DNA from: Devosia sp. 1566
Lineage (GTDB): Bacteria > Pseudomonadota > Alphaproteobacteria > Rhizobiales > Devosiaceae
Length of the DNA stretch: 64,000 bases
Direction: 5' to 3'
NCBI RefSeq assembly: GCF_004005995.1
Contig: NZ_CP034767.1
Location: 4,008,501 to 4,072,500 of the forward strand
Shown: positions 5,324 to 37,979 of the stretch, piece after piece
Layout: each line of letters opens with the position of its first letter
Numbering within the stretch: the first letter of the stretch is position 1
Program-made: the position numbers and the translations under genes
Notes under the pieces: model-generated
Databases searched by the model: none
The model's input: the letters and a program-made list of their open reading frames with translations, nothing else
Told to the model about the DNA's origin: nothing

Positions 5324-5934
5324 CCGGCACCCTGATCCTTGTCCGTCACGGCCAAAGCGAGTGGAACCTGCTCAACCTCTTTACCGGCTGGCGTAACCCC
5401 GACCTGACCGAGCAGGGGATGGAAGAGGCCCGCGCCACCGGCAAGGCGCTGAAGGCCGCGGGCATCGTGCCCGACCTTTATTATACCTCGGCTCTGCGCC
5501 GGGCCCAGCACACGCTCGATTTGATGCTCGAGGAAATGGGCGTTCTGAATTGCACCATCATTCGCAACACTGCGCTCAATGAACGCGACTATGGCGACCT
5601 CTCGGGTCTCAACAAGGATGATGCCCGCGCCAAATGGGGCGAGGAGCAGGTGCTGATCTGGCGCCGCTCCTATGATGTGCCCCCTCCTGGCGGCGAATCG
5701 CTCAAGGACACGGCGGCCCGCACCTTGCCTTACTACCAAGCCGAGATCCTGCCGCGTCTCCAGGCCGGCGCAACCATCCTCATTGTTGCCCATGGCAACT
5801 CGCTGCGCGCCATGGTCATGGCCATTGAGGGGCTGACGCCCGAGCAGATCCTCAAGCGCGAGATCGCGACCGGCCAGCCTACGGTGTACGAGATCGGCAG
5901 CGACGGGGCGCTGGAGCGCCGCATCGAGCTCTAG
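5320..5934 (+). CDS. gpmA: 2,3-bisphosphoglycerate-dependent phosphoglycerate mutase
   Basis: It interconverts 3- and 2-phosphoglycerate in glycolysis and gluconeogenesis. The 204-aa product is the short alphaproteobacterial form. The catalytic [10 protein letters not shown] (phosphohistidine His10) is followed by [13 protein letters not shown], a tail of [10 protein letters not shown], and the second histidine in VAHGNSLRA. It is coupled to dapB. Its TAG shares a CTAG with the stop of the gene on the other strand, and a parS-like palindrome begins at its last base. Confidence 0.95.
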
Positions 5935-6818
5935 GTTTCACGTGAAACCGGGTGGGTGGCGGAAATGACCCCGGCCTCCCACCCCAGGATCGCGCGCTTG
6001 CGCGGCACGCCCCAATGATAGCCGGTCAGCGCCCCTGAACTGCCCACCACCCGGTGGCAGGGCACCACAAAGCTGATCGGGTTCTTGCCCACCGCCGCCC
6101 CCACCGCCCGCGATGCCGAGGGCCGTCCCACCTGACGCGCCACCTCCGCATAGGTGCTGGCCTGCCCCAGTGGGATCGAAAGCAGCGTCTCCCACACCTT
6201 GACCTCGAAGTCGGTGCCGATCAGCACCACCCGCACCGGCTGCTCGGGCGACCAATGCTCGGGCGAAAACACCTGGGCGACCATGGGCGCAATGCGCGCA
6301 TCGTCGCGAATGAACCGGGCATTGGGCCAGCGCTGCGCCAGATCCTCGAAGGCCCGCTCGATGCTGGTCTCGCCATCGGCAAAGCCCAGCCCGGAAATAC
6401 CGTAGTCGGTGGCAGTCACGACGGCGGTCCCGAACGGGGAGGGGGCCGCGCCCCAGATCATGTCGATCCCCGCGCCACCGGCCCGGAACACGCCGGGCGG
6501 CATCGCCTCATAGGTCACGAACAGATCATGTAGCCGCGAGGTCGAGGAGAGACCCACTTCATAGGTGGTGTCGAGTACGCTTTGCCGGCTCGCCAGCAGC
6601 GATTTGGCATGGTCGAGCGCCACCGCCTGGGCAAAGGACTTGGGTGTCAGCCCGCACCAGCGGCGAAACAATTCGCTGAGCGAACGCTCGCTTTGCCCCA
6701 GCGCACGGGCGAATCGGGCGAGATCGAGTTCATCGGGGCCTGTTTCGCTGAGATAGCGAATGGCCGCGCGAATCGCCTCGTAGTCATCGGCTGCGGATAT
6801 GGTCACATGCGTGTTCAT
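5931..6818 (-). CDS. Ada-like protein: AraC-type HTH plus methylated-DNA--protein-cysteine methyltransferase
   Basis: The 295-aa product has an N-terminal AraC-type helix-turn-helix domain (about residues 10-105, with [21 protein letters not shown] and [16 protein letters not shown]) and a C-terminal O6-alkylguanine-DNA alkyltransferase domain (about 125-285). The acceptor cysteine lies in [13 protein letters not shown], the canonical PCHRV motif. The zinc-binding N-terminal domain of full-length E. coli Ada, with its phosphotriester-accepting Cys38, is absent. It therefore likely repairs O6-alkylguanine and perhaps regulates genes by another route. A single-gene unit, tail to tail with gpmA. 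Confidence 0.9.
5934..5949. promoter_or_regulatory. parS-like ParB-binding site (perfect 16-bp palindrome)
   Basis: GGTTTCACGTGAAACC is a perfect palindrome whose 14-bp core GTTTCACGTGAAAC equals the core of bacterial parS (TGTTTCACGTGAAACA); only the two outermost bases differ. It lies exactly where the convergent gpmA and Ada-like genes end and codes for the last residues of the latter. ParB loading at such sites, usually near the origin, drives chromosome segregation. Confidence 0.75.
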
Positions 6819-6868
6819 GGGGAGGAAGCTAGGACAATGCGCCCCCGCAAGCGACCCGAAAACAACGT

Positions 6869-7351
6869 CTAGGCGCGCGCCTTGCGCAGGGCCGAACCGA
6901 AGGCCTTGCTGAAGCTCGAGAGGTCATCGGGATGCAAGAACGCCCCCACTGGCGTATCGAGCCCGCCCGAGCGCAGCAACAGCCCCGTCGTGCGCTCGTT
7001 GATATCGCGCTCGATCACCAGCCGCACCTGGCGCGGGTCAAACAGCTGCGTGCTGGTTTCGCCCTTGGCCCCGATGCTGGTCAGCTCGAGCCGATCCTTC
7101 CACAGCCGCACCTGTTCGGCCTGCTTGCCGCCCTTGATCGAGGCATGCATCGCCCAGGCAATGGCCAGCACGTCGAGGCCCATGAACCCGATCACCGGCC
7201 AGGCGCCCATGGCAAAAAAGATGATACCGGGGATCAGCGCGAGGACGCCTGCCAGGGCAACAACGAACCAGCCACCGCGTCGCGACAGGGAGCGGTGTGG
7301 CGTCAGCCTAGCTGCAAAGAGCGGCGCTGTGGTTGTAGCTTGCATCGACAT
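6869..7351 (-). CDS. DUF2244 membrane protein
   Basis: The 160-aa product has two adjacent hydrophobic segments (about residues 25-65, GWFVVALAGVLALIPGIIFF and then GFMGLDVLAIAWAM), followed by a soluble beta-rich part with RQVRLVIERDINERTTGLLLR. This layout and the C-terminal GAFLHPDDLSSFSKAF resemble the DUF2244 family of alphaproteobacteria, whose role is unknown. It is divergent from nth with 45 nt between the starts, so the two promoters must share a very short space. Confidence 0.75.
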   Translation of the reverse strand: MSMQATTTAPLFAARLTPHRSLSRRGGWFVVALAGVLALIPGIIFFAMGAWPVIGFMGLDVLAIAWAMHASIKGGKQAEQVRLWKDRLELTSIGAKGETSTQLFDPRQVRLVIERDINERTTGLLLRSGGLDTPVGAFLHPDDLSSFSKAFGSALRKARA

Positions 7352-7396
7352 GGTAAAGCTCTCAAGCCATATAACCCCAAAGCGGGGAGTGAGAAA

Positions 7397-8089
7397 ATGC
7401 CGCCATTAAAAAAAGTGAAGTCACTGCCTCCCGCGGCTATCGCGGCGATCTTCGAGCGCTTCCACAGCATAGACCCTGAGCCAAAGGGCGAACTCGAATA
7501 TGTCAACGCCTTCACTTTGTTGGTGGCGGTGGTGCTTTCGGCCCAGGCGACCGATGCAGGCGTCAACAAGGCGACCCGCGCGCTCTTTCAACTGGCGCCC
7601 ACCCCCGCCGCAATGGTGGCGCTTGGCCCCGAGCGCATCGAGGAAATGATTCGCACCATTGGCCTGTTCCGCACCAAGGCCAAGAATGTCTATGCCCTCA
7701 GCCAAAAGCTCCTCAACGATTATAGCGGCGAGGTCCCGGCCGATCGCGAGGCGCTGGAATCCCTGCCCGGCGTCGGGCGCAAAACCGCCAATGTCGTGCT
7801 CAACATCTTTTTTGGCCAGCCCACTATGGCCGTCGACACCCATGTGTTCCGGGTCAGCAACCGCACCGGCATCGCTCCAGGCGCCACGGTGCTGGCAGTG
7901 GAAACCCGGCTGATGCAGGTTATTCCACCCGAGTATGCGCTCCATGCCCATCACTGGCTGATCCTGCACGGCCGTTATATCTGCAAGGCGCGCAAGCCCG
8001 AATGCTGGCGCTGCCCCATCCGGCAATGGTGCCTGTTCGAGCCCAAGACGCCCGCACCCGGCGGCGGCCCCCAAGCGCTCTCGAGCTAG
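7397..8089 (+). CDS. nth: Endonuclease III (DNA glycosylase/AP lyase)
   Basis: Nth removes oxidised pyrimidines and cuts abasic sites in base excision repair. The start at this ATG gives 230 aa, family size; longer in-frame readings run into unrelated upstream sequence. The helix-hairpin-helix LESLPGVGRKTANVV holds catalytic Lys129, and AVDTHVFRVSNR holds Asp147. The C-terminal C-x6-C-x2-C-x5-C cluster (CKARKPECWRCPIRQWC) binds 4Fe-4S. It ends in a CTAG shared with the convergent gene. Confidence 0.96.
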   Translation: MPPLKKVKSLPPAAIAAIFERFHSIDPEPKGELEYVNAFTLLVAVVLSAQATDAGVNKATRALFQLAPTPAAMVALGPERIEEMIRTIGLFRTKAKNVYALSQKLLNDYSGEVPADREALESLPGVGRKTANVVLNIFFGQPTMAVDTHVFRVSNRTGIAPGATVLAVETRLMQVIPPEYALHAHHWLILHGRYICKARKPECWRCPIRQWCLFEPKTPAPGGGPQALSS

Positions 8090-8550
8090 CTGCCGTAACC
8101 CCGCGCCATCATCGCAGCAAAGATTGGCACGAGGATGAGAAAACCCAACTCGGCATGGAGGAACCGACGCTGCCGGCGAATTTCACCTTCGCTTGGGCGA
8201 AAGCCGGGATCGGCGCGAAGCGCTTTGCGCCACCGGCCAAAGGCAATTGTGGGCGCAATTGACAGCAGGCCCACCGCCACAAAGGCGGCCATCTTTCCCC
8301 AGAAGGCGTGATTGCTGAAATAATAGTCCGGACCCGCGGCACCCCAGTACAGCCGCATCACTCCCACCAGCACCACCAGCACTGCGGCGCTGCCATAAAC
8401 GGCGTCGAGCCGCGCCAAGCGCTGCAGCTGTACGCCGTCTAGACCGGGACGCAGCAGCACGAATTCGGCTGCGATCGCGCCAACCAAGGTGAACACCGCT
8501 AGATGGTGACCGATCGCCAAGGCAAGATCTGCATCCATCTTCCGCTCCAT
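8086..8550 (-). CDS. DUF2214 family membrane protein
   Basis: The 154-aa product has four predicted membrane segments (about residues 8-30, 48-70, 85-105 and 130-150) and the family-like HHLAVFTLVGAIAAEF and LDAVYGSAAVLVV. DUF2214 proteins are uncharacterised. The gene is divergent from a TetR regulator, with the starts 39 nt apart over a long inverted repeat, so it is the likely regulated target. A second ATG 12 nt in (MDADLAL) is a possible start. Confidence 0.78.
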   Translation of the reverse strand: MERKMDADLALAIGHHLAVFTLVGAIAAEFVLLRPGLDGVQLQRLARLDAVYGSAAVLVVLVGVMRLYWGAAGPDYYFSNHAFWGKMAAFVAVGLLSIAPTIAFGRWRKALRADPGFRPSEGEIRRQRRFLHAELGFLILVPIFAAMMARGYGS

Positions 8551-8551
8551 T

Positions 8552-8597
8552 GTTGACGCTGTTCACATGCTAGTTTAGGCATGTGAACAATGTCAAC
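8552..8597. promoter_or_regulatory. Long inverted-repeat operator between the DUF2214 and TetR genes
   Basis: The left arm GTTGACGCTGTTCACATGC (8552-8570) and the right arm GCATGTGAACAATGTCAAC (8579-8597) are complementary at 17 of 19 positions around an 8-nt centre. The arms are themselves split as GTTGAC-N3-GTTCACATGC. The right arm covers the ATG of the TetR gene and the left arm ends next to the divergent start, which fits an operator that controls both directions and autoregulates the repressor. Confidence 0.75.
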
Positions 8598-9150
8598 TTC
8601 GAACCACCCGCCGTATCACCATGGCGATCTGCGCAACGCCTTGCTCGACGCCGCTCTCATCATTCTGGAGCGGGAAGGGGAGGCGGGCCTCGGGCTGCGC
8701 GAACTCGCCCGTGCCGTTGGCGTGTCACCAGCCGCGCCTTATCGCCATTTCGACGGCCGCATTGCCCTCCTGGAAGCGCTGGCGGTCACCGGCTTTCGCC
8801 GCTTCACCCAGATGATGGACGAGGTCGGCGCCACGAACCCGCCCGATCCGCTCGCCGCCATGGGCCGCGCCTATGTCTTGTTCGCGCTTGATAACGGCAA
8901 TCTCTTTCGCCTGATGTTTTCCCCGCAGCTGCGCCGCGCCAATCGTCCCGGCCTGCGCATGGCCGCCGATGCCGCCTTTGCCACCCTGCGCCGCGTTGCT
9001 GGCGGGGAAGGGCGGGAAGCCCGCATTGCCTCGCTCACCGCGTGGGCGCGCGTTCATGGCCTTGCCGTGCTGCTGCTCGATGGCCAGATCGCCATTGAAG
9101 CGGGCGAAGACACCCGAGACCTGATCGCCCAGATCATCGGCCGCTCCTAA
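8590..9150 (+). CDS. TetR/AcrR family transcriptional regulator
   Basis: The 186-aa product has an N-terminal TetR DNA-binding domain (about residues 10-60): LRNALLDAALIILEREGEAGLGLRELARAVGVSPAAPYRHF is the helix-turn-helix with the usual PYRHF end, here named by its position at residues 14-55 and key residues VSPAAPYRHF. The C-terminal part, with LFRLMFSP and RVHGLAVLLLDGQI, resembles the WHG-type ligand domain. The start codon lies inside the operator palindrome and I see no Shine-Dalgarno sequence before it, so the mRNA could be leaderless. Confidence 0.88.
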   Translation: MSTSNHPPYHHGDLRNALLDAALIILEREGEAGLGLRELARAVGVSPAAPYRHFDGRIALLEALAVTGFRRFTQMMDEVGATNPPDPLAAMGRAYVLFALDNGNLFRLMFSPQLRRANRPGLRMAADAAFATLRRVAGGEGREARIASLTAWARVHGLAVLLLDGQIAIEAGEDTRDLIAQIIGRS

Positions 9151-9236
9151 GCTGGCTACCCGCCTAGTTCGGCTGGCCAATTGCACAGCCCGGCGCGATC
9201 CTCTACACCGCCAAGGTCTGGTCCCGGAGCCCCTGC

Positions 9237-10241
9237 ATGTCCGAAACGCGGTTTGACGTCCTCACCATCGGCAATGCCATTGTCGATATCATTGCCCCCG
9301 TCGAGCCGGGCTTCATCGAGCGCGAAGGCATGAGCAAGGGCATCATGCACCTCATCGACACCGACCGCGCTGCCGATCTTTACGACAAGATGCCCCTGGG
9401 CAAGCAGCAGATCTCGGGCGGCAGCGCCGCCAATACCGCCGCCGGCGTCGCCTCCCTTGGTGGCCGCGCCGCCTTTATCGGCAAGGTCGCCGACGATCCG
9501 CTGGGCGACGTCTTTGCCACCGACCTCGATGCGCTGGGCGTCTACTACGCCACCAGCCGCCTCGAAAACGGCGCGCTCACCGCCCGCTCCATGATCTTCC
9601 TGTCCGAAGATGGCGAGCGCACCATGAACACCTATCTCGGCGCCTGCCACGAGCTGACCGAGCGCGACATCCGCCCCGACGAGATCGGCAGCGCTGCCAT
9701 CACCTATATGGAAGGCTTTCTATGGGACCCGGTCGAGGCCAAAAAGGCCTTTGTGCTGGCCGCCCACTACGCCCACAAGAACGAGCGCGCCGCCGCCTTC
9801 ACCCTTTCGGACCCGTTCTGCGTCGATCGTTATCGCGCCGAGTTCCTCGATCTCATCCGCTCCAAGACCATCGACTATGTCTTTGCCAATATCAACGAGC
9901 TGAAATCGCTCTACCAGACGGATGACCTCGGCGTCGCTGTTCGCGAGATCGCCAAGGATGCCGAACTCGCCGCCATCACCATGGGCGCCGATGGCGCGAT
10001 GGCGATCTGCAATGGCGAAGTGGTTTCGGTACCAGCCTTCCCGGTGCCCCATGTCGTCGATGCCACCGGCGCCGGCGATCTCTTCGCCTCGGGTTTCCTG
10101 CTCGCTATGGCCCGTGGCCAAACGCTGGAAACCGCGCTCAAAACCGGCTGCCTCGCGGCTTCCGAGGTGATCTCCCATATCGGCGCGCGCCCGCAGCTCG
10201 ATCTGGGCGACCTGACCCGCGAGCACGGGCTGGCGGGCTAG
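9237..10241 (+). CDS. Adenosine kinase (PfkB/ribokinase family)
   Basis: This PfkB-fold sugar kinase is 334 aa. It has the N-terminal DVLTIGNAIVDI, the substrate motif QISGGSAANTAAGVASLGG, and the C-terminal DATGAGDLFASGFL signature whose GAGD carries the catalytic base Asp281 and anion hole. Overall it resembles the adenosine kinases of alphaproteobacteria, which salvage adenosine to AMP, though the family also holds other nucleoside and sugar kinases. It stands alone and shares a CTAG stop with the convergent NUDIX gene. Confidence 0.85.
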   Translation: MSETRFDVLTIGNAIVDIIAPVEPGFIEREGMSKGIMHLIDTDRAADLYDKMPLGKQQISGGSAANTAAGVASLGGRAAFIGKVADDPLGDVFATDLDALGVYYATSRLENGALTARSMIFLSEDGERTMNTYLGACHELTERDIRPDEIGSAAITYMEGFLWDPVEAKKAFVLAAHYAHKNERAAAFTLSDPFCVDRYRAEFLDLIRSKTIDYVFANINELKSLYQTDDLGVAVREIAKDAELAAITMGADGAMAICNGEVVSVPAFPVPHVVDATGAGDLFASGFLLAMARGQTLETALKTGCLAASEVISHIGARPQLDLGDLTREHGLAG

Positions 10242-10801
10242 GCTCGGAGCGCCTCCAGCCGCCGCAGCCCGCGCGGGGCGAAATCGGCCAGCGCCTCGAC
10301 TGACCGCCACTGCGCGCCATGCACTTCCTCGAGCTGGGGCGTGAGCGGCAAGCCCGGGTCGGCTACGAACAGATATTGCAGATCGTGGTGCACATGCGCC
10401 GGCTCGTTGCGGGCCGGTTTGCCCGGCACGTCGTGGCTGTCGATGGTGAAGGGCAGATCGCTATCCGCGTGCCAGGGATGGAGCCGCAGATCTGCGACCC
10501 CCGTTTCCTCGAAGGCTTCCCGTGCCGCCGATTGGGCAAAGCGCGGTGCCGGTTCGTAGTGCCCGCCCGGCTGCAGCCATCGGCCGATGGTGACATGGTC
10601 GATCAACAAGGCCTGCCGGAGATCGGGCGAAAGCACAAAGGCACTGGTCGTGACATGCCCCGGCAAGGTGCTCCGCTCATCGAGCTGATGCCCCTCTGCG
10701 ATCTGCCAGCGTAACAGGGAGAGGTATTCTCCCCGCTCCGCCACTTCGGCAAGGTAGCGCTCCACCAGGGCATTCAGCGTGGGCAGGAAGGGTTTAGGCA
10801 A
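10238..10801 (-). CDS. NUDIX hydrolase
   Basis: The 187-aa product carries a NUDIX box from residue 100 or so: GGHYEP followed by [11 protein letters not shown], matching G-x5-E-x7-REUxEExGU except for small spacing differences at the first Glu. It would cleave a nucleoside diphosphate linked to some group; the substrate is not predictable. The start is a TTG overlapping the end of pyrF by 8 nt, so translation is probably coupled. A GTG 12 codons in is an alternative. Confidence 0.82.
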
Positions 10802-11492
10802 GCCGTGTGCCGCCGGCCATTTCGGCGAGGATCGCCCGGGCTGCCGCTGCGGGATCGGGCGCTTCGATGATCGGGCGCGCCACGACGAGATGGGTCGCGC
10901 CGGCGTCGAGCGCCTCGCGCGGACCCATGACCCGCTTCTGGTCCCCCGCCGGCGAACCGGACGGGCGAATGCCGGGCGTCACTACCGCGAGGTCAGGACC
11001 CACGAGATTGCGCACCATCCCCGCTTCATGGGCCGAAGCCACAACGCCACCGATCCCGGCTGCCCGCGCCTGTTCGGCCCGCAGCGCGACGAGGCCCGCC
11101 GCATCGCGCTCATAACCCGCTTCGCGCAGATCGGCATCGTCCATCGAGGTCAGCACGGTAACGCCCAATACGCACAGCCCCGATCCGGCGGCGGCCTTGG
11201 CGGCGGCGCGCATGGTCTTGGGATAGGCATGCACGGTCAGCATGGTCGCGCCCGTCTGCGCGAAAGCAGCGACCCCTTTTTCAACCGTGTTGTCGATGTC
11301 GAGGAGCTTGAGATCGAAGAATACCTTCTTGCCCGCGCTAATCAACTCCTTGCCCAGGGCAAACCCGTCCCCGCCATAAAACAGCTGGTAGCCGATCTTG
11401 TAGAACTCGACGCTGTCGCCCAGCCGCGCGACCATGTCTTCGGCCTTGGCGCGCGACGACAGGTCCAGACCAACAATCAATTCTCCGCTCAC
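10794..11492 (-). CDS. pyrF: Orotidine 5'-phosphate decarboxylase
   Basis: PyrF makes UMP from OMP, the last step of de novo pyrimidine synthesis. The catalytic tetrad motif [14 protein letters not shown] (D-x-K-x-x-D) is intact, as are IVGLDLSS at the N-terminus and the phosphate-binding [15 protein letters not shown] at 11492 with GGGAG about 8 nt upstream gives 232 aa and is preferred over a TTG at 11513. It lies third in a minus-strand run with a NADPH-FMN reductase and a phosphatase upstream and NUDIX downstream. Confidence 0.94.
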
Positions 11493-11528
11493 CGCTGCTT
11501 CTCCCGGGCTCAAAAACTGCCGGGAGGC

Positions 11529-12167
11529 TTAGGTCAAAACCCGAGCCTCCGCAATCGCCGGCGCGGTGAACCAGTCCGGTGGCAATTCCTCGAGGGGCGT
11601 CCAGTCCAGCAGCACTTGTCTCTCGGCAAGCTCGAACACGAACCCATTGCCACCGCCCCGACCGCCGCGGCGCCCCTGGTCTTCCCGCCGGTCGATCGGC
11701 ACTCCTGCGACAAAGCATTTGAGCAGCGTGCCCACCCCGCCATGCCCGCAAAACACTGCCGGGGTGCCCGGGGGGACACTGGCCAGCGCCGTGCGCACCG
11801 TTTCAACGATACGGGCCTGCGCGTCGATCGCCCGTTCCCATCCCTGGTAGCTGCTATGGGGTTCGGCAAAGAACTGGTCGGCTGCCAGCTCAAACAGCGC
11901 CGGGGGCAGAAAGCCCGTGCTGCTGCGATCATTTTCCCCCATCAGGTGATCGCTCAACACCACTGTCCCGGTGCTCGCCGCGAGAACTTCGGCGAGATCG
12001 AGTGCCTTGCGCTCGCGGCTCGAAAAGATCATCGCGCCGGGCGGCACCACGCCCCGCGCCGCAAAGCGCTCAGCCCGGTCGAGCCCTTCGGCCGACAGCG
12101 GCCACAGCGGCACCGGCACATTGGCATCCATGCTGATCTGCGGGTGGGAAAGGTAAAGTGCCCGCAT
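11529..12167 (-). CDS. Histidine phosphatase superfamily protein with variant RHG motif
   Basis: The 212-aa product has the phosphoglycerate-mutase-like layout: N-terminal phosphohistidine region, MIFSSRERKALDLAE in the middle and a second histidine in AVFCGHGGVGTLL. The usual R-H-G triad at the N-terminus reads S-H-P (ALYLSHPQISMD), so the histidine is kept but the adjacent arginine and glycine are not. I recall related alphaproteobacterial proteins with SHP or THP here, so it is probably a subfamily and not a decayed gene. Substrate unknown. A GGRGGG low-complexity stretch occurs near residue 178. Confidence 0.75.
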   Translation of the reverse strand: MRALYLSHPQISMDANVPVPLWPLSAEGLDRAERFAARGVVPPGAMIFSSRERKALDLAEVLAASTGTVVLSDHLMGENDRSSTGFLPPALFELAADQFFAEPHSSYQGWERAIDAQARIVETVRTALASVPPGTPAVFCGHGGVGTLLKCFVAGVPIDRREDQGRRGGRGGGNGFVFELAERQVLLDWTPLEELPPDWFTAPAIAEARVLT

Positions 12168-12173
12168 CGCCTG

Positions 12174-12719
12174 CTAGCCTCTGCTGAAATGGGTGAGATC
12201 GTGCACCAGCTGCTCGATCTTGCCGACCACGGATTTTTCGGTGGGATTGCCGTCCGCATCAAAGGCGGCGGCGCCCGGGCCAATGCCGAGCAGCGTCGGC
12301 ACCACCAGGGCTCCAAGTTTGCTCAGGCTATCGCGCAGATGGGACTGGCCCATCACCGTGCCATATTTGCCCGAGCTCACCCCGCCAATGCCAAAAACGG
12401 CGTGCCGGAACGGATTGGGCTTTTGCCGGCTGAGCCAGGCAATGGTGTTGACCGTCAGGGGTGTCAGCCCGCCATTATATTCCGGACTGGCCCAGAAGAT
12501 GATGTCGTGGCTGGCAAACAGCTGCGCGAGAACAGGCGCTGCTTCCGGTACCTGGTCCGGTTCCAGATCCTCGTTGAACAGGGGCATGGGAAAGTCGCCC
12601 AGTTCAAGCTGGGTGACCGCAACCCCGGCTTGCGTGAGCTTGCGCCCGACATGGTTTTGCAGCACGCGGTTGAGCGAGCCGCGCCGGATCGAGCCTGAAA
12701 GCGTCAATGCAGTGCCCAT
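12174..12719 (-). CDS. NADPH-dependent FMN reductase family protein
   Basis: The 181-aa product is a flavodoxin-like NAD(P)H:FMN oxidoreductase. The phosphate-binding loop SGSIRRGSLNRVL is at the N-terminus, FWASPEYNGGLTPLTVN follows (the conserved S-P-E-Y-N-G), and GVSSGKYGTVMGQSHLR binds the flavin ring region. I chose the ATG at 12719, with GGAGG 12 nt upstream; a longer reading to 12776 adds an unconserved tail. It probably heads the operon with the phosphatase, pyrF and NUDIX genes. Confidence 0.85.
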   Translation of the reverse strand: MGTALTLSGSIRRGSLNRVLQNHVGRKLTQAGVAVTQLELGDFPMPLFNEDLEPDQVPEAAPVLAQLFASHDIIFWASPEYNGGLTPLTVNTIAWLSRQKPNPFRHAVFGIGGVSSGKYGTVMGQSHLRDSLSKLGALVVPTLLGIGPGAAAFDADGNPTEKSVVGKIEQLVHDLTHFSRG

Positions 12720-12839
12720 GCCGGCAGTGTTCCTCCGCGTTGGAGGATCAATGTTGCTCAGCTGCGGGATGTGCACAAGCCATGTTGACGCATAGCTGCC
12801 GATGGGATCGTCTCAACTCGCACTGAGGGAGACAATTAC

Positions 12840-13085: not shown

Positions 13086-14216
13086 TTAGGTGTCGAACAT
13101 CTTTTTGAGCTTGGCGAAAAACCCGTCCGAAGTGGGGCTGGTTTCGTTCGTGGTCAGGCGCTGGAATTCTTCGAGCAGTTCGCGCTGCTTGCGGCTGAGG
13201 TTCTGCGGCGTCTCAATATCGAGCTGCACATAAAGATCGCCCTGATCCTTGGAGCGGAGCACCGGCATGCCCTTGCCCTTGAGGCGCACGCGCTGACCCG
13301 GCTGGGTGCCGGCCGGCACCTTGACCTTGGCTCGCGCATTATCAAGCGTTGGCACCTCGAACTCGCCCCCCAGCGCCGCCGTCGTCATCGCGATGGGGAC
13401 GCGCGCATAAAGATCAGCGCCGTCGCGCTGGAACAGGTCGTGCGGCTTGATCGAGATAAAGATGTAAAGATCGCCCGGCGGGCCACCACGCAGCCCCGCC
13501 TCGCCCTCATTGGCCAGCCGGATGCGCGTGCCATCCTCGATGCCCTTGGGGATATCCACCGATAGCTTGCGATTCTCCTCGCGCCGGCCCTGGCCACCGC
13601 AATCGGTGCAGGGCTGGTCCATCATCTGGCCGCGGCCCTGGCACACGGGGCAGGTCCGCTCGATGGTGAAAAAGCCCTGTGCAGCGCGCACCTTGCCATG
13701 GCCATTGCATTGCCGGCAGGTATGGGTGCCGGTGCCCGGCTTGGCGCCCGAGCCATCGCAGGTGGTGCAGCCAACCAGCGTTGGCACATCGATCTCGACC
13801 GTGCGGCCGGTATAGGATTCCTCGAGCGAGATTTCGAGATTATAGCGCAAATCCGAGCCGCGCAGCTTGGCCGAGGCCCCGCCGCCGCCGCGTCGGCCGC
13901 CCATGAAATCGCCAAAGATGTCTTCGAAGATATCGGACATCGAGGAGTTGAATTCGGGGCCAAAGCCCGCGCCTCCACGCCCACCGCCATTTTCAAACGC
14001 GGCATGGCCGAACCGGTCATAGGCGGCGCGCTTCTGGCCGTCCTTGAGCGTGTCATAGGCCTCGCTGATTTCCTTGAACTTGGCCTCCGCTTCGCTGTTG
14101 CCGGGGTTGCGGTCGGGATGATGCTGCATGGCCAGCTTGCGATAAGCACTCTTGAGTGCCGCATCGTCGGCTCCCTTGGCAACGCCAAGCACTTCGTAGA
14201 AATCTCGTTTGGCCAA
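13086..14216 (-). CDS. dnaJ: Chaperone protein DnaJ
   Basis: DnaJ is the Hsp40 co-chaperone that delivers unfolded substrates to DnaK and stimulates its ATPase. The J domain (residues 1-70) has HHPDRNPG with the essential HPD. A glycine-rich linker follows, then four CxxCxGxG zinc repeats ([32 protein letters not shown]) and the C-terminal substrate domain. The start is a TTG (reads [11 protein letters not shown]) preceded by GGAG 9 nt upstream, giving 376 aa; longer readings add sequence foreign to the family. Confidence 0.95.
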
Positions 14217-14404
14217 GAAAATTGTCTCCAGACGCCGGGCTGCGGTACGGGCGTCGCGCGGGGAGCGCGCCAGCCCGGCACCGATGGGATTGGTTGGAAC
14301 TGCCTCACAGATGGCGACGCTGCGCCGCCGGTGCAAGGGTGATTAGCAAGGGTAGGGCGCGCCAGCAACTCTTGGATACACGTGAAACCCTGTTGCCCAG
14401 GCCC

Positions 14405-14455: not shown

Positions 14456-16366
<1,911 letters not shown>

Positions 16367-16483
16367 AACGTGCCTCTTTTTAAGCAAAACCCTTGATCGA
16401 AACCCCTCTTGAAAGCGGGTTTCCAGGGCCTTCGGAGCCGGGTTTCCTTGAATTGGGTGTGCTCATTGCTGAGCGTGAGGGGT

Positions 16484-23771: not shown

Positions 23772-23810
23772 CGATTGGGTGGCGCGCGCCTGCGTGCTAG
23801 CCTTGCGCCC

Positions 23811-24692
23811 ATGAGTTCAGAGTTCTTCATCGCCGGCACCAAGCTCGAGGCCCCTCCCTTGGCGCCCGGCCTTTACGTCGTTGCCACCCCCATCGGCAAT
23901 CTGCGTGACATCACCATCCGCGCCCTTGAAACCCTTGCCGCCGCGTCCGCCGTGCTCTGCGAAGACACCCGCATGTCGGCGCGCCTGCTCGATCACTACG
24001 GCATCAAGACCCGCCGCGTGGCGCTGCACGAACACAATGAGCGCGCCAAGGCCGACGACATCGTCGCGCGCATCGCCGCCGGGGAAGCCCTGGCGCTGAT
24101 TTCCGACGCCGGCACGCCCTTGCTTTCCGATCCCGGCTTCCCGCTGATCCGCGCGCTGGCCGCCGCCGATCTGCCGGTCTTCGCCGTCCCCGGCGCCTCA
24201 GCACTTCTTTCCGCTCTTGTCGTCGCGGGCCTGCCGACCGACGCCTTTGCCTTTCACGGCTTTTTGCCGGCCAAGGCGGGCGCTCGCGCCACCGCGCTTG
24301 CCGCCCTTTCGGTTTCACGTGAAACTCTGGTGTTCTACGAATCCCCGCGCCGCCTCGACGATACTTTGGCTGCTATGGCCGAAATTCTCGGTCCGGACCG
24401 GCAAGCGGCCGTCGCCCTCGAGCTCACCAAGCGCTTCGAACGCGTGCAGCGCGGCACTCTGGCCGAACTCGCTGAGAGCTTCGCCGAAGGCGATACCAAG
24501 GGCGAAGCCGTTATCGTTGTCGCCGGCGCGGCCGAAGCTGCGGCCCCCGACGCGGCCGATTGGCAGGCCGCGCTCCTTGCCGAAATGGCCGACCAGCCCC
24601 TCCGCGCCGCGGTTGACGCTGTCACCGCCCGCTTTGGGCTAAAGCGCAAGGAGGTCTATGATGCCGCCCTCGCCCTTAAAGCCACCGACTGA
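23811..24692 (+). CDS. rsmI: 16S rRNA (cytidine(1402)-2'-O)-methyltransferase
   Basis: RsmI methylates the ribose of C1402 in 16S rRNA. The 293-aa product has [21 protein letters not shown] near its start and [14 protein letters not shown] and [17 protein letters not shown], all typical of this tetrapyrrole-methylase-fold family. The start is ATG at 23811; upstream codons are unconserved. Its 3' end overlaps yraN by about 30 nt. A parS-like site lies inside the gene. Confidence 0.95.
24311..24326. promoter_or_regulatory. parS-like ParB-binding site inside rsmI
   Basis: GGTTTCACGTGAAACT holds a perfect 14-bp GTTTCACGTGAAAC core and differs from the classical parS only at the first and last base. 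It is coding sequence (VSRET) yet keeps full palindromic symmetry in the core. It is the second such perfect core in the window. Confidence 0.7.
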
Positions 24693-26685: not shown

Positions 26686-26688
26686 TCC

Positions 26689-30859: not shown

Positions 30860-30918
30860 CTTGTGTTCTCCATCCCCGGCCCTCCCGCCTGCTGCGGAAA
30901 GGATGTTGCGCTTTGGCC

Positions 30919-31037
30919 CTGACAGCGCCTGTCAGGACGCCGCGACCTCTTGGTCGTCGGCCCCGCCGCGACCTCCTGGTCGTCGCCCCGCGGCGGGCCC
31001 TTGCTCGTCCGCTCCCGGCGAGCCCTTGCTCGTCCGC
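30919..31037. repeat. GC-rich repeat block beside galM
   Basis: CTGACAG-CGC-CTGTCAG (30919-30935) is a perfect inverted repeat. Two near-identical 21-26-nt units containing GCGACCTCYTGGTCGTCG lie at 30939-30964 and 30965-30985, and two 22-nt units containing GCCCTTGCTCGTCCGC at 30991-31012 and 31016-31037. No coding function is visible. Confidence 0.75.
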
Positions 31038-31049
31038 CCTGTTTATCGC

Positions 31050-32060
31050 CTAGCCGATCTCGATCTCGCACCAATGCCGGTATGGCTTGTCGGGCCCATG
31101 GATGATCGAGGGGAAATGCGGGTTGTGCAAGGCATCGGGGAACATCTGGTCCTCGAGGCAAAACCCGGAATGCTTGGGATAGCGGCGACCGTTCAACCCG
31201 GGCACCGCCACATTGGTCATCACCCCGTTATAGAACTGCAGGCCCGGCCGGTCGCTCCATAATTGGAGTGTAAGCGCCCCGTCTGGCCCGCGCACGGTCG
31301 CGATCGGGTCGGCGAGATCGCGGCCGGTGTCGAGCACGAGATTGATGTCATAGTCGATCGGCGCGCCCGCTTCATCGCGCAACGTGCGCCCCGCGCGCAG
31401 GTCATATTGCGTGCCGCGCGAGGGCAGGATGGCGCCGGTGGGGCACAGATCGGGGCCCAGCTGCGTATAGGCGCTCGAGGGGATCTGCACCCAATGGTCC
31501 AGCACCAGCGGGTCGGTGCCCAAATTCCAGTACTGGTGCTGCACGAGGCTGATCGGCGTGCGCCGGTCGGTTGTTGCCTCGAACTCGGTGCGCAGCCGGT
31601 TGCCCACCAGCCGATAGGTCACGGCAAAATCCACATTGCCCGGATACCCCATCGCCCCGTCGGGGCTATGGAGGGTAAACCGCACGCTGTTGCCGGCACT
31701 GTCGACCTCGCCGGCCCAGACCTGGCGCCCCAGCCCTTCGGGGCCGCCATGCAGGTGAATATTGCCCTCATTGACCGGCAGGTCGTAGTGCTGCCCGTCC
31801 AGGTCGAATGATGCGCCCACGATCCGGTTGGCCACCCGCCCCGTGATCGCGCCGAAATGCGGACTATGCTCGGGATAGGGCTCGAAGCTGTCGAACCCCA
31901 GCGCCACCGAGCGCAGGCCCCCCGCCACCCGCACCCGCCAGTCGCGCACCGCCGCGCCATAGCCGATAATGTCGATCTCGACCCCCGTATCGCTGCGCAG
32001 ATGATATTGATCCACGCGCTTGCCGTTGAACTGGCCGAATTCGCTAACTGCTATGCTCAT
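31050..32060 (-). CDS. Aldose 1-epimerase (mutarotase) family protein
   Basis: The 336-aa product is a GalM-like beta-sandwich. It contains the family histidine segments VANRIVGASFDLDG, NIHLHGGPEGLGRQVW and QHQYWNLG, and ends with FCLEDQMFPDALHNPHFPSI (the Glu base lies in CLEDQ). It interconverts alpha and beta anomers of an aldose. Divergent from the LacI-type regulator of the xylose genes, it probably acts on xylose. The ATG at 32060 has GAGAGG upstream. Confidence 0.88.
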   Translation of the reverse strand: MSIAVSEFGQFNGKRVDQYHLRSDTGVEIDIIGYGAAVRDWRVRVAGGLRSVALGFDSFEPYPEHSPHFGAITGRVANRIVGASFDLDGQHYDLPVNEGNIHLHGGPEGLGRQVWAGEVDSAGNSVRFTLHSPDGAMGYPGNVDFAVTYRLVGNRLRTEFEATTDRRTPISLVQHQYWNLGTDPLVLDHWVQIPSSAYTQLGPDLCPTGAILPSRGTQYDLRAGRTLRDEAGAPIDYDINLVLDTGRDLADPIATVRGPDGALTLQLWSDRPGLQFYNGVMTNVAVPGLNGRRYPKHSGFCLEDQMFPDALHNPHFPSIIHGPDKPYRHWCEIEIG

Positions 32061-32088
32061 GCGCCTCTCCCCTTTTGCGCCCTGCTTT

Positions 32089-32148
32089 AGCCGGTTTGCG
32101 TTCACCCCTGCAACGGCGCACTTGACCAAACACTTGACCTAACCGGCT
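32089..32148. promoter_or_regulatory. Candidate control region between galM and the LacI-type gene
   Basis: Adjacent direct repeats CACTTGACCAAA (32119-32130) and CACTTGACCTAA (32131-32142) each contain a TTGACC -35-like hexamer, and AGCCGGTT (32089-32096) is inverted as AACCGGCT at 32141-32148. The 127-nt divergent spacer must hold two promoters and probably operators for the regulator. Confidence 0.4.
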
Positions 32149-32187
32149 GCCCTCCGCAGTGTCTCGCGCGGTTTGGAGACAAGGGCA

Positions 32188-33228
32188 GTGAACGAGATCG
32201 GATCGAGGCGCCGGGCAACGGTTCATGATGTGGCGCGCGCCGCGGGCGTGTCGCTGGCCACGGTTGATCGCGTGCTCAACAATCGCCCCGGCGTGCGCCC
32301 CGTCACCGCGCAAAAAGTCGAAGCGGCAATGGCCGCTATCGGTTTCCAGCGCGATCTGTCCGCCTCGCTGCTGGCCCGCGGGCGCGATCTGCGCGTCGTT
32401 TTCCTCCTGCCCGCCGGCTCCAACGAATTCATGGGCAGCCTGGCCGGCGCGGTGGAGCGGCGCGCCCAATCCAGCGCGGGCGAGCGGCTGGCGCTCGAGC
32501 TGCGGCGCCTGCGCCCGCTTGATCCCGAAGGGCTCGCCCGCGCCCTTGACGGGCTCGAACCTGCCATCTGCGATTGCGCCGTGATCGTGGGCAGCGAAAC
32601 GCCGTCTGTACTGGCTGCCGTCGAGCGCGCCAGCCGCCGCGGCGTCGCGGTGGTGACCCTCGTGTCGGATCTGCCCAATTCCGCCCGCCGCCATTTCATC
32701 GGCATCGACAATCCCGCCGCCGGCCGCACCGCCGCCTCCCTCATGGGCCGGTTCTGCCCAAAGGGAGCCATCGGCGTCATCGCCGGCTCGCTCGCGCTGC
32801 GCGATCATCGCGACCGCCTCGATGGCTTTGGCGCCGTTCTCGCCCGCGAGTTCCCGGACTTGCAACTGCTCGGACCGCTCGAAAGCCATGACGAGCCCGC
32901 CCACGCAGAGGCGCTTGCCACCCGGCTTTTGGCCGACCATCCCGATCTGGCCGGCATCTACAATCTTGGCGCCGGCAATGCCGGGCTCGTGGCGGCGCTC
33001 GCCGCCTCCGAGCGCGCCCGCGCTGTGCGCGTCATTGCCCATGAGCTGACGCCCGCCACCCGCGCCGGGCTTGATTCGGGGGCGATCGATGTGGTGCTGG
33101 ATCAAAATCCCGATCACGAAATCCGCGAGGCGCTGCGCGCCGCCCAGCAATGTGCCCTTGGCAGTGCCGCACCCGTCACCACCGACCCCATTGAAATTGG
33201 GATATTCCTGCGCGACAATCTGCGCTAA
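32188..33228 (+). CDS. LacI family transcriptional regulator of the xylose cluster
   Basis: The 346-aa product has an N-terminal LacI helix-turn-helix (ATVHDVARAAGVSLATVDRV, then NNRPGVRPVTAQKV) and a periplasmic-binding-protein-like sugar domain with HFIGIDNPAAGRTAA. A GTG start is supported by GGAGA and AAGGG upstream. Its place directly before xylB-xylA suggests it represses them and releases on a pentose. The variant VDRVLNN in the hinge region is common in subfamilies with a type I sugar-binding domain. Confidence 0.88.
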   Translation: MNEIGSRRRATVHDVARAAGVSLATVDRVLNNRPGVRPVTAQKVEAAMAAIGFQRDLSASLLARGRDLRVVFLLPAGSNEFMGSLAGAVERRAQSSAGERLALELRRLRPLDPEGLARALDGLEPAICDCAVIVGSETPSVLAAVERASRRGVAVVTLVSDLPNSARRHFIGIDNPAAGRTAASLMGRFCPKGAIGVIAGSLALRDHRDRLDGFGAVLAREFPDLQLLGPLESHDEPAHAEALATRLLADHPDLAGIYNLGAGNAGLVAALAASERARAVRVIAHELTPATRAGLDSGAIDVVLDQNPDHEIREALRAAQQCALGSAAPVTTDPIEIGIFLRDNLR

Positions 33229-33321
33229 CACAGCAGCCGATCCAAAATTCGGCATCGCCCAAACGGGCAGGGGAGGGACTTTCGTGTTTTCACGCTTGCC
33301 AAATTGTGAGGTACGTTCCTC

Positions 33322-34788
33322 ATGACCAACTTCCTTGGCATTGATATCGGCACCTCCGGCGTCAAGGTGATGCTGATCGATGCGGCAGGCCGTCCCATCG
33401 GCGACGCCACCGCGCCTTCCCCCGAGCCGACCCGCCCCCATCCCGGCTGGTCCGAACAGAACCCTGCCGATTGGTGGGCAGCAACCCAGGCCGCCCTTGA
33501 TGGGCTGAGCCAAAGCCACGCGACCGAGCTCGCCGCCGTGCGCGGCATTGGCCTCTCCGGTCACATGCATGGCGCCACGCTGCTGGGGGAAGACGATGTG
33601 GTTCTGCGCCCCTGCATTTTGTGGAATGACGGGCGCTCGGCCGCCGAATGCGCCGAAATGGAAGCGGCGCTCCCCACCCTGCGTGATATTGCCGGCAACA
33701 TCGCCATGCCCGGTTTCACCGCGCCCAAGATCGCCTGGGTGCGCAAGCATGAGCCCGAGGTCTATGCGCGCATCCGCAAGGTGCTGCTCCCCAAGGCCTA
33801 TGTGCGCCTCTTGCTGACCGGCGACTATATCGAAGACATGAGCGATGCCTCGGGCACGCTCTGGCTCGATGTCGGCCGGCGCGACTGGTCCGACGAACTG
33901 CTTGCCGTGACCGGCCTTGATCGCTCCCACATGCCGCGCCTCGTTGAAGGCTCTGCCCCCTCGGCCATCCTCAAGCGCGAGCTCGCTGCCCGCTGGGGCA
34001 TGTCGGGCGATGTGGTGGTGGCCGGCGGCGCTGGCGACAATGCTGCCGCCGCTTGCGGTATCGGCGCCATTCGCCCCGGCGAAGGCTTTGTGTCGCTCGG
34101 CACCTCGGGCGTCCTGTTCGTATCCAACGACAAGTTCCGCCCCAACACCTCGGGCGCCGTGCATGCCTTTTGCCATGCCGTTCCCGACACCTGGCACCAG
34201 ATGGGCGTGATCCTTTCAGCGACCGACTCGCTCAACTGGCTCGGGCACATCACCGGCCAGAAGCCCGCCGCCCTGGCCGGCGCTGCCGAAGCGGGTTTCA
34301 CCGGTCCCGGCGAGGAGATCTTCCTGCCCTATCTCTCGGGCGAACGCACGCCGCACAACAATGCCGGCGCCCGCGGCAGCTTTGTCGGCCTCTCCCACCG
34401 CTCCGATCCGGCCCGGCTCGCCCAGGCGGTGATGGAAGGGGTCAGCTTTGCCGTGCGCGACTGCCAACGCGTCCTTGAGGATGCCGGCACCCAGATCAAC
34501 CGGCTGATCGCGGTGGGCGGGGGCAGCCGGTCGGCGCTGTGGCTCAAGCTGATCGCCACCAATCTCAACACCGAGATTGCCCTGCCTGAAGATGGCGATT
34601 TCGGCGGTGCGCTGGGCGCCGCCCGTCTCGGGCTCTGCGCGGCCACTGGCGCCAACCCCGCCGAGGTAATGACCATGCCCGCCATCAAGACCGTCATTGC
34701 ACCCGATGCCCGTTTGTCGGCTGCCTATACCGAGCAATACCAGCGCTACCGCGCGCTTTATCCCGCCATCGAGGAGGCACGTTCGTGA
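33322..34788 (+). CDS. xylB: Xylulokinase
   Basis: XylB phosphorylates D-xylulose to xylulose 5-phosphate. The 488-aa FGGY-family product begins [18 protein letters not shown] (phosphate loop), has [12 protein letters not shown] with the substrate HMHG, and the signature [35 protein letters not shown] near the end. It is coupled to xylA by GTGA. Spacing to the regulator is 93 nt. Confidence 0.96.
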
Positions 34789-36092
34789 CTGATTTCTTCA
34801 AGGGCATTTCGCCCGTCAAATATGAAGGCCCGTCGAGCACCAATCCGCTCGCCTATACCCATTACAACAAGGACGAGATGGTCGCCGGCAAGCGGATGGA
34901 AGACCATATCCGTCCCGCCATCGCCTATTGGCACACCTTTGCCTATGAAGGCGGCGACCCCTTTGGCGGCCGCACCTATGATCGCCCCTGGTTCGATCGC
35001 GGCATGGACGGCGCCCGTATGAAGGCCGATGTGGCCTTCGAGCTCTTCGAATTGCTCGACGCGCCCTTCTTCTGCTTCCACGATGCCGATATCGCCCCCG
35101 AAGGGGAAACCCTCGCCGAATCCAACCGCAATGTGCGTGCCATCGGCGAGATCTTTGCCAGGAAGATGGAAACGAGCCGCACCAAGCTCCTTTGGGGCAC
35201 GGCCAACCTCTTCTCCAACCGCCGCTATATGGCGGGCGCCGCCACCAATCCCGATCCCGAGATCTTTGCCTATGCCGCCGGCCAGGTGAAGAACGTGCTC
35301 GAACTCACCCATGAACTGGGTGGCGCCAATTACGTGCTCTGGGGCGGCCGCGAGGGCTATGAAACCCTCCTTAACACCAAGATCGGCCAGGAGCAGGACC
35401 AGATGGCCCGGTTCCTCCACCTCGTGATCGATCACGCCGACAAGATCGGCTTCACGGGCCAGATCCTGATCGAGCCCAAGCCGCAGGAGCCATCCAAGCA
35501 CCAGTACGACTTCGACGTCGCGACGGTTTACGGCTTCCTCAAGAAGTACGGCCTCGAAACCCGCGTGAAGTGCAACATCGAAGTCGGCCACGCTTTCCTT
35601 GCCAACCATTCCTTTGAGCACGAACTGGCGCTGGCCGCGTCGCTGGGCATGCTGGGTTCGGTCGATGCCAATCGCAACGATTTGCAGTCGGGCTGGGACA
35701 CCGACCAGTTCCCCAATGACCCGCGCGAAATGACTCTCGCCTTCCTGCAGATCCTCAAGAATGGCGGCCTCGGGTCAGGCGGCTTCAACTTCGACGCCCG
35801 CGTGCGCCGCCAGTCGCTTGATCCCCAGGATCTGCTGATCGGCCATATCGGCGGGCTCGACGTCCTCGCCCGCGGCCTCAAGGCTGCCGCCGCCATCATC
35901 GCCGACGGCACCTATGACCAGGCGGTCGACCAGCGCTATGCCGGCTGGACCGAAGGCCTTGGCCAGGACATCCTCTCGGGCAAGCTGTCGCTCGCCGACC
36001 TCGCCCAGAAAGTGGAAACCGAGAACCTCAACCCCCAACCCGTCTCGGGCCGCCAGGAATATCTCGAAAACCTGATCAACCGCTTCATCTAG
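34785..36092 (+). CDS. xylA: Xylose isomerase
   Basis: XylA converts D-xylose to D-xylulose with two divalent metals. The 435-aa product is the class II (long) form: [17 protein letters not shown] has the catalytic His and Asp, [15 protein letters not shown] and [20 protein letters not shown] (metal ligands, cited by EPKPQEP) and [19 protein letters not shown] follow. The start is a GTG overlapping the xylB stop. Confidence 0.97.
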
Positions 36093-36116
36093 GCCTTGTC
36101 ACGAGACGTCGGGCCA

Positions 36117-36283
36117 TCCCACCCCTCCCCCTTGAGGGGAGGGGTCAGGGGTGGGGGTTCAGGCCTCTCCTCCACTTCGACTTCGCCGCTCGATCGTCCC
36201 CGCTTCGGACAGTTCGAACCACCCCCGATCTCTCCTCCGCCACCCCTCCCCCTTGAGGGGAGGGGCCGGGGGAGGGGGTCCCT
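36117..36283. repeat. Compound palindromic repeats between xylA and the xylosidase
   Basis: Two copies of a palindromic core, CCCTCCCCCTTGAGGGGAGG, start near 36124 and 36245, followed by AGGGGTGGGGGTTC-like and GGGGGAGGGGGTCC-like tails. TTCGAACCACCCCC at about 36212 is an inverted copy of the first tail. The same element family fills 47826-48325. These 273 nt hold no gene. Confidence 0.85.
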
Positions 36284-36365
36284 CAGTGACCCCGCCAACC
36301 ACCCCAGTCCTCTGCCCCATAGAGGACCCAAGGCACCGCCACCGCTGCGCTCGCGCGAGGAACCC

Positions 36366-37979
36366 ATGCCCACCATCACCAATCCCATTCTGCCCGGCTT
36401 CAACCCCGATCCCTCGATCTGCCGCGTCGGCGAGGATTATTACATCGCCACCTCCACCTTCGAGTGGTTCCCCGGCGTGCAGATCCACCACTCCCGCGAC
36501 CTCGCCAACTGGGACCTCGTCTGCCGTCCGCTCACCCGAAAGACTCAGCTCGACATGCGCGGCGATCCCGATAGCTGCGGCGTCTGGGCGCCCGACATTT
36601 CCTATGCCGATGGCTTGTTCTGGCTCGTCTATACCGACGTCAAGCGCAAGGACGGCTCCTTCAAGGACGCCCATAACTACATAGTCACCGCCCCCTCGAT
36701 CGAGGGGCCCTGGTCCGACCCGATCTACATCAATTCCTCGGGCTTTGACCCCTCGCTGTTCCACGACGATGACGGCCGCAAATACTTCGTCAACATGCTC
36801 TGGGACCACCGCACCCGCCCGCTCAAATTCGCCGGCATTGCGCTCCAGGAATTCGACCCCGCCGCCGGCAAGCTCATCGGCCCGGTCACCAATATCTACC
36901 AGGGCACCGACCTCAAGCTCGTCGAAGGCCCGCATCTTTATAAGCGCAACGGCTGGTACTACCTGCTGACCGCCGAAGGCGGCACCGCCTATGAGCATGC
37001 CTGCACCTTCGCGCGCTCGCGCACCATCGATGGGCAATACGAAACCCATCCGGACAAGCATATCCTCACCTCCAAGGACGCGCCCTTTGCCGCCATCCAG
37101 CGCGCCGGCCATGGCGATCTCGTCGATACCCCCGAGGGCAAGACCTATCTCGTCCATCTCGGTGGCCGTCCCACCACCCAGAACCGGCGCTGCGTTCTGG
37201 GCCGCGAAACCTCGATCCAGGAAGCCTATTGGGGCGATGACGACTGGATTCACGTGAAACAGGGTCCCGTGCCCTCTCTCCACGTCGAAGTGCCCGGCAC
37301 CCGCAACGACACCCCCTATTGGAGTGAGCAGCGCTATAGCTTCGCCGATAGCGAGCTACACCAGGACTTCCAGTGGCTGCGCACCCCCGAGCCTGAGCGC
37401 ATCTTTGCCCTCGAGGATGGCAAGCTGCGCCTTTTCGGCCGCGAATCCATCGGCTCCTGGTTCGAGCAATCCCTCGTCGCCCGCCGCCAGACCCACTTCT
37501 CCTATGATGCCGAAACCACGCTCAGCTTCGATCCGGTCGACGAGCGCACCATGGCGGGCCTTACCGCCTATTACAGCCGCTACAATTTCTATTATCTCGC
37601 CGTCACCGCCCATTCCGACCGCCAGCGCGAGCTGCTCCTGATGAGCTCGGAAATGAGCTGGCCCGACGGCAATCTGCGCTTCCCCGCCGAACCGGTGCAG
37701 ATCCCCCAGACCGGCAAGGTCAAGCTCGCCCTCTCCATCCGCGGCGCCGCCTTGCAGTTCTACTACGCCCTGGAAGGCGAAGCCCTGCAGCCCATCGGCC
37801 CGGTGCTCGATGCCTCGATCCTTTCGGACGAATGCGGCGGTCACCAAGCCCATGGCTCCTTTACGGGCGCCTTTGTCGGCGTCGCCGCCCAGGATCTCAA
37901 CGGCACCGCCCGCCCGGCCGATTTCGATTATTTCGTCTATCGTCCCGAGCACCACGCCAGCGACCGCTACGAGGTCTAG
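36366..37979 (+). CDS. Beta-xylosidase, glycoside hydrolase family 43
   Basis: The 537-aa product starts TITNPILPGFNPDPSICRVG, the GH43 beta-propeller with its catalytic base Asp. TSTFEWFPGVQIHHS, CGVWAPDISYADGLFWLVYT and KLVEGPHLYKRNGWYYLLTA (the general acid Glu) follow. About residues 340-530 form the GH43 C-terminal beta-sandwich. No signal peptide, so it cleaves imported xylo-oligosaccharides in the cytoplasm and feeds XylA. The ATG has GAGGAA just upstream; the gap from xylA carries repeats. A weak parS-like site lies inside. Confidence 0.93.
   Translation: MPTITNPILPGFNPDPSICRVGEDYYIATSTFEWFPGVQIHHSRDLANWDLVCRPLTRKTQLDMRGDPDSCGVWAPDISYADGLFWLVYTDVKRKDGSFKDAHNYIVTAPSIEGPWSDPIYINSSGFDPSLFHDDDGRKYFVNMLWDHRTRPLKFAGIALQEFDPAAGKLIGPVTNIYQGTDLKLVEGPHLYKRNGWYYLLTAEGGTAYEHACTFARSRTIDGQYETHPDKHILTSKDAPFAAIQRAGHGDLVDTPEGKTYLVHLGGRPTTQNRRCVLGRETSIQEAYWGDDDWIHVKQGPVPSLHVEVPGTRNDTPYWSEQRYSFADSELHQDFQWLRTPEPERIFALEDGKLRLFGRESIGSWFEQSLVARRQTHFSYDAETTLSFDPVDERTMAGLTAYYSRYNFYYLAVTAHSDRQRELLLMSSEMSWPDGNLRFPAEPVQIPQTGKVKLALSIRGAALQFYYALEGEALQPIGPVLDASILSDECGGHQAHGSFTGAFVGVAAQDLNGTARPADFDYFVYRPEHHASDRYEV
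37246..37261. promoter_or_regulatory. parS-like site inside the xylosidase gene
   Basis: GGATTCACGTGAAACA matches 14 of 16 positions of TGTTTCACGTGAAACA, with the right half perfect and mismatches at positions 1 and 3. It lies in coding sequence. Confidence 0.45.

Follow-up and report, generated by a model that had tools for sequence, protein, structure and literature searches.

The window analyzed here, by which we mean the whole 64,000-nucleotide stretch of Devosia sp. 1566 spanning bases 4,008,501 to 4,072,500 of a single contig of 4,168,745 bases, contains five matches to the parS motif TGTTTCACGTGAAACA, of which two have a perfect 14-bp core and three are variants. Judging from sequence, we regard these five as putative nucleation sites for chromosomal ParABS in an alphaproteobacterium of the Devosia group, with a probability of about 0.94. 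By type they are ordinary chromosomal ParABS sites, and their role in ParB binding is predicted. Less usual are three properties of the array to which they belong: it is partly embedded in genes, it lies mostly on one arm of the chromosome, and its imperfect sites are kept imperfect.

Putative parS sites in the window and along the chromosome

Our scan recovered all five sites, which share the center CACGTG and are reported without strand, at the coordinates listed in an earlier note on this DNA. The perfect 16-bp palindrome GGTTTCACGTGAAACC at 5934-5949 lies where the 3' ends of a gpm-like gene and an ada-like gene converge, and GGTTTCACGTGAAACT at 24311-24326 lies within rsmI, where it is read as the codons GTT TCA CGT GAA ACT. 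A third site, GGATTCACGTGAAACA at 37246-37261, matches 14/16 positions and is located within a GH43-family gene. The remaining two have two core mismatches each: TGATTCACGTGAAGCC at 1587-1602, which matches 13/16 positions and is read within hisA as GAT TCA CGT GAA GCx, and the degenerate GGATACACGTGAAACC at 14374-14389, which matches 12/16 positions and occupies the gap between dnaK and dnaJ. The NBS motif of the nucleoid-occlusion protein Noc has a CCCGGG center and differs in this from the window sites.

The earlier note gave the chance of a perfect 14-mer as 1 in 270 million, which is correct at even base use (4^14), and its view that two perfect cores in 64 kb exceed chance holds against composition-matched controls. 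The window has 2, 3, and 5 matches to the 14-mer at zero, up to one, and up to two mismatches, and none of 419 permuted palindromes with identical composition equals parS at any of these levels; the mean at up to two mismatches is 0.15 across all 420 palindromes, parS among them. Likewise, the 16-mer with up to three mismatches has four matches in the window, compared to a shuffle mean of 0.09. At up to three mismatches to the 14-mer the excess is gone: the window still has 5 matches, a count equaled by 35/419 controls, and looser matches are therefore uninformative.

On the scale of the genome, the core is matched 12 times at up to two mismatches (7 for a reversed-motif control) and 6 times at up to one (1 for the control). 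The sites are not scattered evenly around the chromosome, a pattern that the earlier note had held would speak against its proposal. All 6 sites with zero or one mismatch, and 10 of the 12 with up to two, fall between 3,992,280 and 4,115,030, that is, within 123 kb of 4.17 Mb; the two outlying matches are at 3,858,089 and 2,540,649. In the origin-region sequence, the 10 matches at up to two mismatches compare with none for the reversed control.

The array is accompanied by a linked parAB pair, 16 to 18 kb to the left of the window (parB, 3,990,345-3,991,298; parA, 3,991,225-3,992,025). This parB encodes ParB_N, HTH_ParB, and ParB_C domains (PF02195, PF17762, and PF23552) and is the one ParB gene in the genome above the Pfam cutoff, standing beside a ParA ATPase gene and mnmG/mnmE; a second ParB_N match, at 1,263,148, is weak and under that cutoff. 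By sequence, the best solved relative of the protein is Caulobacter ParB (6t1f), and the alignment includes the stretch GERRWRAA, which we take to be involved in CTP binding. The gene order to the left of the window is a DNA-polymerase-delta-like gene (a weak match, just below cutoff), parB, parA, a gap in which, from gene order, we infer that rsmG would be expected, mnmG, mnmE, rho, a UPF0093 gene that is presumably hemJ, hemE, a gap of 421 bp, maf, and an aroE-like gene. Two parS sites also lie between parA and mnmG, exactly 270 bp from each other (contig 3,992,280-3,992,563), and this spacing is repeated in four origin regions from the same genus and in several more genomes.

Probable position of the replication origin

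The 421-bp gap between hemE and maf (3,998,856-3,999,276), about 9.4 kb to the left of the window, is probably oriC, as judged from sequence features. Using box consensus sequences that we assume for DnaA and CtrA, we found in the gap two DnaA-like boxes, both with one mismatch, along with three CtrA-like boxes, of which one is exact and the others have one mismatch each. In 3,000 random 421-bp draws of the available sequence, no draw equaled the gap in both counts. On this reading, the five window sites lie at about +11, +15, +24, +34, and +47 kb relative to the midpoint of the gap. The array of 10 sites (up to two mismatches) extends from 6.7 kb to the left of the gap to about 116 kb to its right, with 7/10 sites on the right.

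In E. coli, GGGNAGGG is the motif that orients FtsK; we used it here solely as an arm marker. Clusters of G/C-rich palindromic repeats of the CCCTCCCCCTTGAGGGGAGGG type, which are REP-like, occur in the window at 36119-36279 and 47835-48338, and paired GGGNAGGG hits like those that these clusters create are also present at contig positions 4,125,550-4,125,633. Since REP-like repeats give paired hits, pairs were removed before the motif was used as a marker: 30/172 hits were dropped for having an opposite hit within 60 bp, leaving 142. GC skew and GGGNAGGG were both measured on samples amounting to about 0.53 Mb of the 4.17 Mb. The strand bias of GGGNAGGG flips best at 3,999,408 and 1,801,822, an arrangement that 121 of the 142 sampled hits fit. 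Plus-strand hits outnumber minus-strand hits 24 to 5 over 3,997,800-4,072,500 and 13 to 1 over 4,072,501-4,124,999, and the bias is reversed to the left of the hemE gap (4 versus 16 over 3,800,000-3,997,799).

The most serious alternative accepts the sites as parS and places the origin elsewhere. One candidate is dnaA, at which the record begins and which, on a circular contig, would be about 170 kb from hemE; the other is the point near 4.125 Mb where GC skew turns. The skew, moreover, is negative throughout the window and becomes positive only from about 4.125 Mb; there is no turn at the hemE-maf gap, and shortly after the record start the skew has returned to near zero or slightly below. 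Near the positive turn, about 115 kb from hemE, lie two parS-like sites separated by 1 kb, at 4,113,980 and 4,115,017 (4,113,980-4,115,030 overall). Against this placement stand the GGGNAGGG flip at 3,999,408, with counts reversing to its left, and the 4.5 kb scanned around the record start and dnaA, in which no DnaA-like or CtrA-like box was found within one mismatch; these two results disfavor oriC at dnaA in particular. There is also a precedent in another alphaproteobacterium, Hyphomonas, for which GC skew, dnaA, and DnaA sites were inconclusive and the peak of marker frequency was close to hemE (PMC6650430; here and below, published systems are described from excerpts of the cited papers). 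We therefore consider an origin elsewhere unlikely. GC skew by itself would not have revealed the origin.

With oriC placed in the hemE-maf gap, the suggestion of the earlier note that the window lies near the origin, with parS clustered there, is supported: 10/12 sites fall within 123 kb around the inferred oriC, beside parAB. The note had proposed plotting such a scan against both oriC and GC skew; the clustering near the inferred origin stands, and the skew, which turns near 4.125 Mb, does not agree with it.

Conservation of the sites and codon constraint in rsmI

The perfect 14-mer is present in 60 of 61 genomes sampled from the family, once in 52, twice in 7, and three times only in the genome of the window; its reversed control is absent from 61/61. 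In the genus sample, sites with up to one mismatch occur in 61/61 genomes, 54 of which carry 7 to 14 copies, and the reversed control occurs once in 11 genomes and in none of the other 50. The commonest imperfect form among the matches listed is GATTCACGTGAAAC or its complement. In 11/11 genomes from 6 genera in which sites could be placed, a perfect site lies 6.5 to 6.8 kb to the left of the hemE gap. The spread along the right arm is found in 9 of these 11, with G001 and G010 having all their sites of up to one mismatch to the left of hemE, and is thus not family-wide. A rule by which the degraded half of a lopsided site faces oriC was considered for the 11 genomes, and we make no claim for it, given the mixed outcome and positions shared by descent: most right-arm sites and those at -4.4 to -4.6 kb follow it, and sites to the left of -9 kb, those at -1.7 kb, and some on the right arm do not.

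Four origin regions from the same genus contain 14, 15, 17, and 13 sites at up to two mismatches (controls, 1, 0, 0, and 0). The sites at 1587, 5934, 14374, and 24311 have counterparts, either aligned or in the corresponding gap, in all four. For individual loci, we used the best 30 of the 58, 39, 40, and 41 genomes with a match. On the side of the gpm-like gene (5320-5934, plus strand; a phosphoglycerate-mutase-like gene with a His_Phos_1 domain, PF00300), a site is found within 900 bp in 20/30 genus loci and at 1.10 to 1.14 kb in 5. On the dnaK side of dnaJ (dnaJ, 13086-14336, minus strand, DnaJ domains; dnaK, 14456-16387, minus strand, HSP70, E value 2.4e-284), a site is found within 900 bp in 13/30 and at 1.27 to 1.42 kb in 15. 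These sites usually recur while their positions shift, and the 12/16 site at 14374 is therefore supported too. The two coding sites tested stay in place; the intergenic sites shift. In the relatives L218-L246, the dnaJ-side site lies either 47 to 261 bp or 1,270 to 1,416 bp from the end of the dnaJ match, as if some species had an extra segment between dnaJ and dnaK.

Besides the GC skew, several results count against the overall reading. The genome of the window has just 6 sites at up to one mismatch, fewer than most genomes of the genus. The site at 37246 is matched, as an identical and aligned 16-mer, in only one of the four relatives, counted whether or not the GH43 gene is present. With a flank of 1.5 kb, the gpm-side site was not seen in 5/30 genus loci and the dnaJ-side site was not seen in 2/30. 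At 1587 and 14374 the core is mismatched at two positions, and when the two weak sites of Caulobacter were placed in E. coli, ParB enrichment there was slight or absent (PMC5815017).

It is very improbable that the sites instead serve as operators for a transcription factor whose target is a CACGTG-type palindrome and which happens to regulate origin-proximal genes. The sites at 5934 and 14374 do lie outside coding sequence or at its edge, as operators might. However, three of the window sites are within coding sequence (in rsmI, in the GH43 gene, and toward the 3' end of hisA) and one is at convergent 3' ends, not in promoters, and the neighboring genes are functionally unrelated. In addition, the sites cluster with parAB and match the published ParB motif, and no match at up to two mismatches was found in 332 kb sampled off the array, two genome hits existing outside the 123-kb stretch.

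The parS reading is supported at the level of codons in rsmI (23775-24692, plus strand; 16S rRNA methyltransferase family, PF00590 and RsmI_C). An RsmI search returned 80 loci. The scan covered 46 (L107-L151 and L153); the remaining 34 belong to other lineages, at 39 to 52% identity. The nearest named loci are mostly labeled Devosia. We found the site in 43/46 scanned loci, with no control hits; RsmI identity is 74 to 90% for these 43, a few of which have broader labels (Rhizobiales, Alphaproteobacteria, and Phyllobacteriaceae), and the three loci without the site are the most distant (64 to 69%). Similarly, 11/11 same-genus loci and 0/19 other-genus loci have a site at that place, one of the 19 having a two-mismatch match outside the gene.

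Codons were compared over 41 rows, made up of 40 loci and the window; L131, L150, and L153, all of which carry the site, were excluded because they are not in one frame. The core codons GAT-TCA-CGT-GAA show zero synonymous change, the first being GAT in 38 rows and GTT (valine) in 3, including the window. Only 5 of 181 conserved columns lack synonymous change, and four of them are the core codons of the site. The codon after the 14-mer takes all four ACN forms (15, 10, 8, and 8 rows), and the residues just ahead of the 14-mer vary. TCA and CGT, minority codons with an overall use of 0.13 and 0.14, are retained at the site in 41/41 rows. In rows from other genera (n = 22, with L143-L145, which lack the site, grouped among them), the serine position is occupied by Arg (14), Lys (4), Glu (3), or Asn (1). 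The rsmI site is thus under selection at the DNA level, bounded by the parS core.

The site in hisA (799-1629, plus strand; PF00977, E value 2.7e-80; assigned as hisA from its position ahead of a second His_biosynth gene) is an identical 14-mer, with the same two mismatches, in 30/30 genus loci. Here, 24 of 197 conserved columns lack synonymous change, namely the four site codons and 20 others, and since those 20 are equally invariant, hisA alone is weak as a codon test. The hisA columns outside the site would fit the notion that in-gene sites are by-products of protein conservation and not of DNA-level selection, but this is the least credible of the alternatives, given that other genera replace the RsmI serine, the genus retains TCA and CGT throughout, and variation in rsmI resumes at the first base beyond the 14-mer.

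Predicted function, known systems, and neighboring features

By inference from other species, ParB dimers would bind the palindrome and nucleate at parS, and ParB would then close as a CTP-bound clamp and slide over a few kb. A partition complex could thus form over the origin region and condense it, ParA would move this region to the new pole, and ParB may also load SMC at the sites. By analogy with Pseudomonas (PMC4368675) and Caulobacter (PMC5815017), the perfect sites at 5934 and 24311 should be the strongest and the two-mismatch sites weaker.

The imperfect forms are stable: the lopsided form is retained in 38/41 rsmI rows, and the two-mismatch form in every hisA locus compared. Our guess is that weakness of the imperfect sites is under selection; amino acid constraint could contribute. 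It is conceivable, as a tentative extension that we hold to be rather doubtful, that the centromere of Devosia is embedded in housekeeping genes as a long and graded array, most of it on one arm. A symmetric site would lie about 6.5 kb to the left of the origin, and weaker lopsided sites of the GATTCACGTGAAAC form would occupy tens of kb of the right arm; selection would keep these imperfect so that loading of ParB and SMC declines along the arm. The array would then dictate codons, and even residues, of RsmI.

Pseudomonas and Caulobacter already provide examples of multiple parS sites near the origin that are graded and embedded in genes. Caulobacter crescentus has sites about 8 kb from the origin that belong to the same motif family, lie in essential or costly genes, and have a better conserved half-site, GTGAAA; its five strongest sites, in contrast, fall within a 5-kb stretch of the left arm, whereas here the sites are mostly on the right arm and cover about 123 kb (PMC5815017). 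In the Pseudomonas aeruginosa set of ten, 9/10 sites were predicted in coding sequences, affinity is graded with perfect palindromes strongest, and several weaker sites keep one arm intact; unlike here, the perfect palindrome is TGTTCCACGTGGAACA, and four strong sites lie no more than 16 kb from the origin, with two sites of the set opposite it (PMC4368675). Hyphomonas neptunium resembles the present case in that its origin lies near hemE, with parAB at a distance of about 7 kb from that gene, and in having the same 16-bp consensus, but two parS sites were reported there, compared to 10 at up to two mismatches in the origin region here (PMC6650430). Bacillus subtilis, in which most parS sites are in the origin domain, and Agrobacterium tumefaciens share the consensus and have several sites; they are of other lineages, and Agrobacterium has further RepB systems for other replicons (PMC9239152 and PMC7022226).

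In open-license papers, we found none that names parS, ParB, and Devosia together and none that contains the string GATTCACGTGAAAC. As far as those searches go, the Devosia array, its spread along the right arm, and the codon-level measurement are new. They place a probable origin and centromere for the genus Devosia and offer a quantifiable case in which a bacterial centromere site constrains its host gene. Since these sites can be followed across dozens of species, the question whether selection keeps imperfect parS weak becomes testable.

Among the other features, no tRNAs and no Rfam families at gathering score were found across the whole window. The gene that holds the 37246 site (36096-37979, plus strand; PF04616) is GH43 beta-xylosidase-like, and its true start is probably downstream of the repeats at 36119-36279. 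A reading frame of 639 amino acids at 10779-12698 (plus strand) has no Pfam match at an E value of 0.001, and its composition is coding-like.

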